A stretch of DNA of 64,000 bases from Rubricella aquisinus (GTDB lineage Bacteria; Pseudomonadota; Alphaproteobacteria; Rhodobacterales; Rhodobacteraceae). The stretch is taken from positions 214,130-278,129 of the forward strand of contig NZ_JACIJS010000007.1 of NCBI RefSeq assembly GCF_014199445.1, written 5' to 3'. The stretch's first letter is position 1. Each line of letters begins with the position of its first letter. Below are positions 9,086-11,747 of the stretch, piece by piece. The notes beneath the pieces are model-generated. The model saw only the letters and a program-made list of their open reading frames with translations, had not been told where the DNA came from and made no database searches. The translations under genes and the position numbers were made by a program.

Positions 9086-9964
9086 TTGAATTGGTCGCAA
9101 CTGCCCCCTTTGGCCGCCCTGCGCGCGTTTGAAGCGACGGCGCGGCATGGCTCGTTTTCCGCCGCCGCGCGGGAGCAGAACGTGACCCCTGCGGCGATAA
9201 ATCAGCAGGTCCGCGCGCTGGAGCGGCATCTAAACGCGCCGCTCGTCCAGCGACAGGGCCGGGGCGTGGCGCTGACGGAGGCGGGCCATAGCCTGTCCCG
9301 CGATCTGGGGCAGGCGTTTTCCCTGATTCAGGACGGGGTGGAGCGGGTGGCGGAGGCCAGTGCTGCGCGCCCTGTGCGCATCACTACGACGCCCACATTT
9401 GCGGCCTATTGGTTCATGCCGCGCTATGGCGCGTTTCGGGCACAACATCCCGACATGGAATTGATGGTGCATCCTACGGGTGCTGTGATCGACATGACCG
9501 ATGGCACCTATGATTTCGCGATCCGGTTCAACGGCAAACAGACACCGGGTCTGGAGAGCGTGCCGCTGGTCGCGACGCCCATCGTCGTGGTCGGCACGCC
9601 AGACCTGATTGCCTCAACGCCTTATAAGGGGCTGGAGGCATTGGCCCATCTGCCATGGTTCGTCGAAAGCGGCTCGGACGAAATGTCCACGTGGCAGGCG
9701 GCGTTCCGGCAGATGACCGCGCGCCCGGATAATGTGACGTGGTTGCCGGGAACGATGATCCTCGATGCGGTACGCGGTGGGCATGGCGTGGCCACGGTGG
9801 CGGAGATGTTCGTGACGGATGAGATCGCCGCCGGACGGCTCATCCCGATCTGGCGGACGGAGGAGGTTGCCGCAGGCTATAGCCTGATTCACCGCAGCGG
9901 GGTCTTGCGCCCCGCCGCGAAAGCCTTCGCCACTTGGATCAAGCGGGAGGCGACGGGAGCCTAG
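9086..9964 (+). CDS. LysR-type transcriptional regulator, GcvA-like
   Basis: A 292-residue DNA-binding regulator. An N-terminal winged helix-turn-helix (LRAFEATARHGSFSAAAREQNVTPAAINQQVRALE) is followed by a substrate-binding domain from about residue 90 (RITTTPTFAAYWFMPRYGAF). The pattern of conserved residues is that of GcvA-type members. I prefer the TTG at 9086, because an AGGTGAGG ribosome site sits six bases upstream and NWSQLPPLAALRAFEA is a typical start; a GTG at 9074 is the alternative. It is divergent from purL. The target is not clear. Confidence 0.88.
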   Translation: MNWSQLPPLAALRAFEATARHGSFSAAAREQNVTPAAINQQVRALERHLNAPLVQRQGRGVALTEAGHSLSRDLGQAFSLIQDGVERVAEASAARPVRITTTPTFAAYWFMPRYGAFRAQHPDMELMVHPTGAVIDMTDGTYDFAIRFNGKQTPGLESVPLVATPIVVVGTPDLIASTPYKGLEALAHLPWFVESGSDEMSTWQAAFRQMTARPDNVTWLPGTMILDAVRGGHGVATVAEMFVTDEIAAGRLIPIWRTEEVAAGYSLIHRSGVLRPAAKAFATWIKREATGA

Positions 9965-10584
9965 AGCCCGGGGACTTTTTCCAACCGTTCAATGGCCTTG
10001 TCCAAGGCCTGAATGGTCCGATCATAATAGGGCCGATTTGCACTGCCCGCTTTCGGCTTTGGTAAGCCTGCCTTCATCGCCTTGAGTTTTTTGAGGAGTG
10101 CCCTGATCTGGTTCCAGTCAAGGTCGGCAAGCGCCTTTCCGATGACCGGGCCTATCTTGTCTAAGGTGTCATTGAGGCTCTTTTTCTTTTTTGCCAGCTT
10201 GGCTTTTTTGATGAGGCTAAACAATGCAAGCATCAAATTGATGAGAGCCAATGCGCTCTCATTCTTAGCCGATTTGTTTTTGTTGTAGGCTTTGAGCGCA
10301 GCGGCTTGCTTTTTCTTTAGGTTCTTTTCTGCCGCATCGGCTGCTTTGGCCTTCCCCGTCACGGCGGTATCAAAGTCGGCCAGTGTTAATGCGACGGGCG
10401 TTTGTTGATCGTCGTCATCCGGTTCGCCTCCCGCACCAGATGTCAGCAACTGCAAAAGATCGGATGTGCCATTGATCACGATGTCGAGGTGGATGGTTCC
10501 ACGGATCAAGAGGCCGCCATCGCTGGCCAGTTGGATTGACAGGCCTTCTGCTGTTTCGATCACTTCATCAGAATTCTGTTTCAT
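9961..10584 (-). CDS. Hypothetical lysine-rich protein with hydrophobic helix
   Basis: A 207-residue protein I do not recognise. Residues 1-50 look beta-rich and neutral (GLSIQLASDGGLLIRG, HLDIVINGTSDLLQLL), then an acidic DDDDQQ stretch near 56-61. A strongly basic, Ala/Lys-rich helical segment follows (78-107), then a hydrophobic helix (111-125, LALINLMLALFSLI) and a second lysine block (126-136). There is no signal peptide. A good promoter and an AGGAG ribosome site precede the ATG at 10584. It overlaps the convergent LysR gene by four bases. The upstream neighbour is the candidate small RNA, whose terminator lies against this promoter. Confidence 0.75.
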   Translation of the reverse strand: MKQNSDEVIETAEGLSIQLASDGGLLIRGTIHLDIVINGTSDLLQLLTSGAGGEPDDDDQQTPVALTLADFDTAVTGKAKAADAAEKNLKKKQAAALKAYNKNKSAKNESALALINLMLALFSLIKKAKLAKKKKSLNDTLDKIGPVIGKALADLDWNQIRALLKKLKAMKAGLPKPKAGSANRPYYDRTIQALDKAIERLEKVPGL

Positions 10585-10617: not shown

Positions 10618-10647
10618 AGTATAGGCGCGCAGCAGGCAAACGCGCAA
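10618..10647 (-). promoter_or_regulatory. Promoter of the lysine-rich protein gene
   Basis: On the minus strand TTGCGC (10647-10642) and TATACT (10623-10618) are 18 bases apart, placing a start near 10611 and a leader of about 27 bases to the ATG at 10584. The -35 box overlaps the T tract that ends the upstream small RNA. Confidence 0.6.
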
Positions 10648-10738
10648 AAAAAAGGCCGAGCATCAAGCTCGGCCCAAGTCCAACAGGGAGGTAAGACCGG
10701 CAGGGAAGCAACACAGTGTTGCGCGTCTGCCTGTCTTG
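10646..10738 (-). ncRNA. Candidate trans-acting small RNA with anti-Shine-Dalgarno motif
   Basis: A free-standing transcription unit of about 93 bases on the minus strand. A 17-base-spaced promoter ends at 10745, giving a start near 10737-10739. The 5' part folds into a long stem (10693-10703 with 10727-10737, one mismatch) holding an inner hairpin of GCAACA and TGTTGC around CTG. An unpaired linker carries CCUCCC (10691-10686), complementary to ribosome-binding sites. The 3' end is a perfect eight-base-pair stem (10654-10661 with 10667-10674) followed by eight T, a textbook intrinsic terminator. No convincing reading frame fits. It lies just downstream of a LysR gene on the same strand. Anti-SD loops are known in other alphaproteobacterial sRNAs; I cannot assign it to a named family. 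Confidence 0.72.
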
Positions 10739-10744
10739 ATGGTG

Positions 10745-10773
10745 TATCTAGGGATTAGACTTCTACCGATCAA
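10745..10773 (-). promoter_or_regulatory. Sigma70-type promoter of the candidate small RNA
   Basis: On the minus strand TTGATC (10773-10768), a spacer of exactly 17 bases, and TAGATA (10750-10745). It lies in the gap after the LysR stop at 10842, and no coding region starts downstream before the terminator. Confidence 0.7.
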
Positions 10774-10841
10774 GGAAAATCATGTCGCACCTCGTGCATA
10801 ACCGTTAGTCGCTGCGTGCATAACTCGCGCTGAGCTATGCA

Positions 10842-11747
10842 TCAGGTTTCCTCCCGATCCTTGAGGGACCGGCGATAGAGTGCGATTTCCTCAAGGATGA
10901 AATCCCGAAACGCGGCGACCCGTTTGGAGTGGCGCAACTCCTCCGGATAGGCGAGGTAGACCGGCACGACGCCGCTGGCCTGCGACGGGACAACATTGAC
11001 AAGCTCCGTTGCCTCCGCCGCCACATAATCCGGCAGCGCGCCGATGCCCAGCCCATGCAATGTGGCCTGAAGCACACCATAATAATTGTTCATGGTCAGA
11101 TGCGACGGCGTGTCGGCGGACAGGAACGGCCTGAGCCATGCCTGTCCAGCAGAGACCTGATTCGCATTCGGGCTATAGCCGACGATCCGGTGGCGCATCA
11201 GATCATCCGACGTTTCCGGCATCCCATGACGGTCGATATAGGCTTTGCTCGCGAAAAAGCGCATCCGCACATCCATCAGGCGCCGGCGGATCAGATCGGC
11301 TTGGCTCGGCTCCTTCATGCGCACCGCGACATCGGCCTCCCGCATCGGCAGATCAACGATGCGTTCATCAAGCATCAGGTCGATCTTCAGATTGGGGAAT
11401 TGATCGTAGAGTTTGGTCAACCGTGGGGCGAGCCACAGGGTGCCGAACCCGGTGGTGGTGGTCACTCGCAATTCGCCGAAAACGGCATCTTCCGAGTCGC
11501 GTATGCGGGCCGTCGCGGCAGCCAGTCGTTTGGCCATGTCGCGGGTCGCGGAATACAGAAGCTCCCCCTGTTCGGTCAGAATCAATCCGCGCGCATGTCG
11601 GTGAAAAAGCGTGACCTTGAGTCCCTCCTCCAGCGACCTAATTTGTCTGCTGACGGCAGATTGGCTCAAATGAAGGCTATCACCGGCATGAGTAAGGCTA
11701 CCCGCATCTGCGACAGCATGAAAAATTCTGAGTTTGTCCCAATCCAT
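10842..11747 (-). CDS. LysR-type transcriptional regulator
   Basis: A 301-residue LysR regulator. The N-terminal helix-turn-helix (LRIFHAVADAGSLTHAGDSLHLSQSAVSRQIRSLE, residues 5-40) is followed by an effector domain beginning near residue 93 (LRVTTTTGFGTLWLAPRLTKL). The effector is unknown. The gene is divergent from a small exported protein gene at 11818; the gap holds a 17-base palindrome that may be its operator. A candidate small RNA is encoded directly downstream on the same strand. Confidence 0.92.
   Translation of the reverse strand: MDWDKLRIFHAVADAGSLTHAGDSLHLSQSAVSRQIRSLEEGLKVTLFHRHARGLILTEQGELLYSATRDMAKRLAAATARIRDSEDAVFGELRVTTTTGFGTLWLAPRLTKLYDQFPNLKIDLMLDERIVDLPMREADVAVRMKEPSQADLIRRRLMDVRMRFFASKAYIDRHGMPETSDDLMRHRIVGYSPNANQVSAGQAWLRPFLSADTPSHLTMNNYYGVLQATLHGLGIGALPDYVAAEATELVNVVPSQASGVVPVYLAYPEELRHSKRVAAFRDFILEEIALYRRSLKDREET

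Follow-up and report, generated by a model that had tools for sequence, protein, structure and literature searches.

The window, a 64,000-nt stretch of Rubricella aquisinus DNA, carries on its minus strand a gene for a small RNA (sRNA) of about 94 nt (10646–10739) which, judged by its genomic setting, is the locus orthologue of SorY and not a member of the Rfam family RF02651. We consider it very likely that this RNA at the SorY locus acts as a stress-induced, Hfq-dependent repressor, which would pair its linker, CCUCCCUGUU, with GGGAGG sites of solute-transporter mRNAs.

The sRNA gene lies in an intergenic gap of 257 bases, bounded by open reading frames (ORFs) at 9961–10584 and 10842–11747. 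An earlier note on this DNA had described a free-standing sRNA on the minus strand of the gap, preceded by TTGATC (10773–10768), 17 bases and TAGATA (10750–10745). These elements could be read directly, and in agreement with the statement that no reading frame fits, no ORF of at least 60 amino acids was found wholly within the gap. The proposed architecture held as well. A computed 5' two-part hairpin of 16 pairs (10693–10737, minus strand) is followed by the linker (10682–10691, minus strand), a predicted anti-Shine-Dalgarno (anti-SD) seed delimited in an alignment of 32 sequences, with CCUCCC at 10691–10686. Folding and a terminator scan both placed an intrinsic terminator at 10646–10675 (minus strand), where the arms GGCCGAGC and GCUCGGCC form eight perfect pairs and one G-U pair ahead of eight T. 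The fold of 10740–10646 had an energy of -40.9 kcal/mol versus -25.3 ± 3.5 kcal/mol for shuffled sequences (z = -4.42; none of 200 shuffles as good). The claim that CCUCCC is unpaired was borne out in part: the motif is outside both stable stems and largely exposed (mean unpaired probability 0.65), but its last two bases fall in a marginal 2-bp helix.

The promoter reading likewise stood in part. The boxes are present at the spacing described, as a -35 element CTTGATC (10768–10774, minus strand) and a -10 element CCTAGATA (10745–10752, minus strand), both assigned from sequence and alignment; however, a generic sigma-70 promoter scan scored no promoter at the sRNA locus, and the putative promoter is better read as CTTG-N18-CCTANNT (here CTTG-N18-CCTAGAT), with RpoH-type spacing. 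The consensus sequences given for Sinorhizobium meliloti are CTTGAA-N16-CCTATAT for RpoH1 and CTTGAC-N17-CTATAT for sigma-70 (PMC8844928, available passages). Since the two share the same geometry, the sequence could belong to a promoter of either sigma factor. The RNA start at 10739 was set by analogy with the published SorY start, from which the step of 6 nt past the -10 box was borrowed.

The earlier note could not match the RNA to a named sRNA; by locus, it is matched to SorY. Rfam scores on their own mislead here, and it is the locus that decides the identity. Of the sRNA families, only SorX (RF02784) passed its cut-off in the window (48.2 bits against a gathering score of 46.6), while on the same RNA SorY (RF02651) reached 51.4 bits, below its cut-off of 111, and suhB/mmgR (RF00519) 34.7 bits, below its cut-off of 41. 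The SorY cut-off is close to the self-score, because the R. sphaeroides copy reaches 115 bits and the copy in locus L028 only 78.6 bits.

A DNA search with the window sRNA gave matches in 81 of 147 genomes, its own included, of which 79 belong to the same family. Of the 29 best foreign loci, 28 have a LysR gene ahead of the sRNA, the LysR protein being 64–72% identical to that of the window; L028, with no LysR nearby, was the sole exception. In genome G050 (locus L014) the DNA match covers 1632678–1632729, the SorY model spans 1632645–1632727, and the copy follows the same LysR gene. A second model match in this genome, at 2598257–2598301, coincides with published SorX. In R. sphaeroides the published SorY start is 1,632,642, with a promoter of its own, and SorX comprises 75 nt from 2,598,224 (PMC6238624, available passages). 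Both the SorY and the SorX coordinates match the published ones, which makes it very probable that G050 is R. sphaeroides 2.4.1 and that the copy in it is SorY. To read the window RNA as a form of SorX, on the strength of its SorX match and its same-strand position some 100 nt past the LysR stop, seems to us quite improbable: a conserved promoter-like box pair precedes the RNA, a separate start has been mapped for the R. sphaeroides copy of this locus according to the same passages (PMC6238624), and SorX lies elsewhere in the R. sphaeroides genome, behind a response-regulator-like ORF.

The SorY assignment was followed through 100 sampled Rhodobacteraceae genomes. The LysR gene was present in 96 of them (E at most 1e-90), and R1, a covariance model of 32 sRNAs, matched 95 (E at most 0.001), about 30 of the 100 genomes having supplied its training sequences. 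Among the matches listed, 89 of the 96 genomes had the sRNA on the LysR strand, 0–1000 nt downstream of that gene (median gap 115 nt), and in 87 genomes this LysR-adjacent sRNA was also the best match. Hence the LysR neighbor, which had already been pointed out, is a conserved marker of the SorY locus. The seven adjacency misses among the matches listed were G033, in which the sRNA sits away from its LysR gene; G080, in which a pattern site nonetheless lies behind LysR; G008, with one unlisted match; and G014, G028, G053 and G058, with no R1 match. This fixed position beside LysR also bears on whether the RNA could be a member of alpha-r8 (MmgR/Sis) that stands next to lysR by chance. Its linker CCUCCCU and terminator are similar to those of that group, for which the available passages of PMC12559287 give the core UUUCCUCCCU, and the suhB/mmgR model scores 35.1 bits in locus L118, much as in the window; yet the window score is under the suhB cut-off, higher scores are reached there by the SorX and SorY models, and chance placement sits badly with the 89 genomes, so that we regard such a membership as unlikely.

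The 32 sequences behind R1 comprised the window, L010–L038, L125 and L126; L127 and L128, which repeat the genomes G054 and G074, were left out, as was a second core in L013. L010–L038 are the best 29 foreign DNA matches, not a random draw. The R1 match in G050 starts at the published SorY start, but this is not independent, since the R1 alignment was cut by a start rule derived from that publication. The linker ACCUCCCUGUUGGACU was invariant in all 32 aligned sequences, a set chosen by a core that holds most of the linker. The 5' domain folded with z < -1 in every one of the 32 (mean -3.9), with drifting sequence and register. The check for compensatory changes gave a mixed outcome: the 5' fold was kept throughout and two of the eight terminator pairs showed compensation, each in a single sequence, but at fixed register the 5' stem of the 10 equal-length sequences gave no covariation signal (88 of 120 paired cells versus 86.6, maximum 93, with dealt-out partners), and covariation in RNAalifold was close to nil (covariation term only -0.12). 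That the element is a mere terminator or 3' end of the LysR gene, devoid of any function in trans, would accord with the good terminator and the nearby LysR stop; we give this almost no credence, as the linker and terminator stem are conserved past the needs of termination and the R. sphaeroides orthologue has a target and a stress role in the available passages of PMC6238624 and PMC5036791.

Two patterns upstream of the sRNA were read off the same 32 loci before being counted. The promoter-like pattern CTTG-N18-NNTANNT was kept in 26 of the 32 (shuffle mean 0.145, maximum 2), and a perfect palindrome, ATGC-N7-GCAT, was present in 23 (shuffle mean 0.43, maximum 3). The window copy is not among the 23; it has instead a candidate LysR-binding region with three degenerate TGCATA/TATGCA half-sites (10794–10841, minus strand). 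The published LsrB consensus GCAT-N3-TG-N3-T occurred upstream of the sRNA in 4 of the 32 loci, which is at chance level (shuffle mean 1.3, maximum 5). In the majority of these family loci, both a palindrome and RpoH-type boxes stand ahead of a single RNA.

The LysR-type regulator itself (10842–11747, minus strand) appears LsrB/VtlR-like from the synteny with trxB and the sRNA in other families, and its gene lies directly upstream of the window sRNA, as lsrB/vtlR does before AbcR. It is putatively the lsrB/vtlR orthologue, on the grounds of synteny and of 45–54% identity to copies from other families. The window protein holds no cysteine and thus cannot use the cysteine switch that has been described for LsrB. 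Across the 32 family copies, 24 have one cysteine, four have two and four have none; among copies from other families, 35 of 56 are cysteine-free. In S. meliloti, AbcR1 is driven by LsrB and AbcR2 by RpoH1 (PMC8844928); an earlier paper saw neither AbcR of this species respond to LsrB, but reports a VtlR-dependent AbcR1 in Agrobacterium tumefaciens (PMC7486931), both papers as far as their text was available. The adjacent LysR protein is predicted to bind the upstream palindrome region and to supply a second input, comparable to that of LsrB on AbcR1 in Sinorhizobium. LsrB/VtlR-like LysR proteins were also found outside Rhizobiales (L069–L128); if these are LsrB orthologues, they are at odds with the section title 'LsrB is a LTTR unique to Rhizobiales' in the available part of a 2025 paper. 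On the other side of the sRNA, between it and a GcvA-like LysR gene, ORF 9961–10584 (minus strand) encodes a lysine-rich protein of 207 amino acids, which had no Pfam or NCBIfam match and was absent from all 29 foreign loci of about 3 kb.

As to function, SorY of R. sphaeroides is RpoHI/RpoHII-dependent and co-precipitates with Hfq (PMC5036791), and it limits malate import; its target is the mRNA of takP, which encodes part of a malate transporter (PMC6238624; available passages of both). By analogy, we infer RpoH-type transcription and Hfq binding for the window sRNA, whose linker would pair with GGGAGG ribosome-binding sites of transporter mRNAs and block them. GGGAGG was found in 6 of 16 binding-protein leaders of its own genome versus 1 of 60 ORFs, and the median duplex energy between leader and linker was -16.65 kcal/mol for the 16 binding-protein genes versus -11.7 kcal/mol for 49 window ORFs (p = 5e-5). 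The leader set held all 13 DctP matches, three of seven Peripla_BP_6 matches and neither of two SBP_bac_3 matches; the test is rough, with start codons chosen by an automatic rule. The enrichment of GGGAGG may have another cause, namely that binding-protein genes simply have strong ribosome sites.

The best predicted target is a gene for a TRAP-type solute-binding protein (L229, 650–1826; G000:C7, 43449 onward), at whose ribosome site the sequence AAGUCCAAUAGGGAGG forms a 16-base complement to the linker with one G-U. The protein has a Tat-like RRNFLK signal, and its best match in the PDB was 24gc, a dihydroxypropanesulfonate receptor (E = 1.6e-195). Sulfonate uptake would differ from takP, the sole SorY target named in the available passages. 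A search for the complement AAGTCCAAYAGGGAGG with one mismatch allowed gave three sites in the same genome among the matches listed: the sRNA gene, the paralogous sRNA L003 and the TRAP leader. Among 15 other long-complement sites in the matches listed, only L271, in genome G392, begins a recognized TRAP gene; the complement there has one mismatch, and the PDB matches include 2hzk, which bears the entry label SmoM and which we take to be R. sphaeroides TakP. Each of the remaining sites was either marked as sRNA-like or had an ORF start that was weak or absent. In the TakP-like leaders of relatives, GGGAGG was kept in 27 of 30 (30 of the 64 matches listed), and pairing beyond GGGAGG in these 30 was at control level, 158 of 200 shuffled linkers giving an equal or better median. 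Further sRNA-like elements were noticed in the Rubricella genome, namely L003 (G000:C5, about 76500, minus strand), which has a 20-nt exact stretch in common with the window sRNA, and L002 (G000:C6, about 255540, minus strand).

The pairing of LysR gene and sRNA extends beyond the family. The LysR protein matched 184 of 289 genomes of the class (E 1e-40). The TrxB motif CA[TV]CDG, in any frame, was found within the fetched stretch at 51 of 60 LysR loci, with four same-family loci lacking it; this agrees with the layout trxB-vtlR-abcR1-abcR2 of A. tumefaciens (PMC7486931, available passages). Outside the family, 37 of 44 and 43 of 50 R1 matches (E up to 1) in two sets fell within the 700 nt that follow LysR, on its strand; in the first set this slot amounts to about 6% of all sequence searched. 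The class-wide count covered 132 distinct loci, four of the 136 being duplicates; four same-family loci of the 60 fetched were left out. Within 500 nt behind LysR, 75 of these held CCTCCCTGT (CCUCCCUGU-type), 8 held the AbcR-like TTCC[CT]CTCTGGAA and 49 held neither. Shuffles on the 136 loci gave a mean of 0.28 (maximum 3) for CCTCCCTGT, a mean and maximum of 0 for the AbcR-like motif and a mean of 1.7 (maximum 7) for the palindrome, the pattern of which had been taken beforehand from the family loci.

All eight AbcR-like loci belong to Hyphomicrobiales (Kaistia, Stappia, Pleomorphomonas, Tepidamorphus, Tepidamorphaceae, two Pseudorhodoplanes and one Xanthobacteraceae); seven hold the S. meliloti AbcR motif aSD2, UUCCCCUC, and four hold aSD1, CUCCUCCC. 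Among the CCUCCCUGU-type loci, 55 of 75 have CUCCCAGAC just before CCUCCCUG, 54 of them as GUCUCCCAGAC, which is self-complementary around a second anti-SD; none of the 32 Rhodobacteraceae RNAs holds this second stretch. Tandem copies, as for AbcR1/AbcR2, were seen in G001 (L013) and in Sneathiella (L131 and L132), the latter with three tandem SorY-like matches behind the LysR gene. The Rfam cut-offs for SorX and SorY, which mislabel the window copy, left these related loci unlabelled, with no match at gathering score in any of 20 sources. At E 0.01, 7 of 12 sources gave SorY or SorX matches, of which the SorY copy of R. sphaeroides alone exceeded its cut-off. Both strands of L121 3748–3843 drew eukaryotic microRNA models below their cut-offs; this element is probably a long inverted repeat.

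One history that could join these loci is that a single ancient pair, in which an LsrB/VtlR-type LysR drove a transporter-silencing sRNA directly downstream, became both SorY of Rhodobacteraceae and AbcR of Hyphomicrobiales. The ancestor would have had two anti-SD motifs; Rhodobacteraceae would have lost the loop motif and united the LysR input and an RpoH promoter in a single copy, and Sinorhizobium would have split the inputs over AbcR1 and AbcR2. We give this common origin even chances. It counts somewhat against it that the perfect palindrome, present in 64 of the 132 loci, occurs in 48 of 75 CCUCCCUGU-type loci but only in 2 of 8 AbcR-like ones (and in 14 of the 49 with neither motif).

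The sRNA itself is an orthologue of the known SorY, and the wider LysR-sRNA link across Alphaproteobacteria looks new. No paper joining SorY with AbcR or AbcR1 was found in the literature searched; most subscription papers lie outside it, and the link may be in print. Among the matches listed, the only paper with terms of both sides was one on Salmonella, with a single mention of SorY and three of LsrB. The locus ties SorY, studied in the photooxidative stress of phototrophs, to AbcR, which in rhizobia is associated with the uptake of nutrients and interaction with the host. Should a single LysR-sRNA pair lie behind both, what has been learned of LsrB/VtlR control and anti-SD targeting would turn into predictions for much of the class, and SorY would gain a second, testable regulator that is encoded next door.

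Compared with known systems, the window sRNA is like SorY (RSs1543; RF02651) in its place downstream of the same LysR gene, in promoter-like boxes at the same spacing, in the linker ACCUCCCUGUUGGACUUGGGCCGAGC and in the terminator; it differs in the sequence of the 5' hairpin and in scoring under the Rfam cut-off, and its best predicted target is a DHPS-type TRAP leader, whereas the published target of SorY is takP. It resembles SorX (RSs2461; RF02784) in the 3' half, with ACCUCCCUGUUGGA and the terminator, and passes the SorX Rfam score; SorX, however, arises at another locus, where processing with RNase E releases it from the 3' UTR of an OmpR-type gene (PMC6238624, available passages), whereas the window RNA follows a LysR gene. 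MmgR and SisA-D (alpha-r8; RF00519, suhB) likewise have a single-stranded CCUCCCU ahead of the terminator, but their suhB model scores lower here, below its cut-off. The genes for MmgR and SisA-D are at other loci. With AbcR1/AbcR2 (alpha-r15) of Sinorhizobium, Agrobacterium and Brucella, the window sRNA has in common a hairpin, an anti-SD linker and a terminator, and the LysR and RpoH1 inputs and transporter targets reported for AbcR in the available passages (PMC8844928, PMC7486931, PMC3712013) have predicted counterparts for the window sRNA. Both stand directly behind a LysR gene, which for AbcR is lsrB/vtlR in A. tumefaciens and S. meliloti (PMC7486931, available passages). AbcR is described as having aSD1 in a hairpin loop and aSD2 in the linker, whereas in the window sRNA neither motif occurs within 10646–10739 and the linker CCUCCCUGUU is the only such element.
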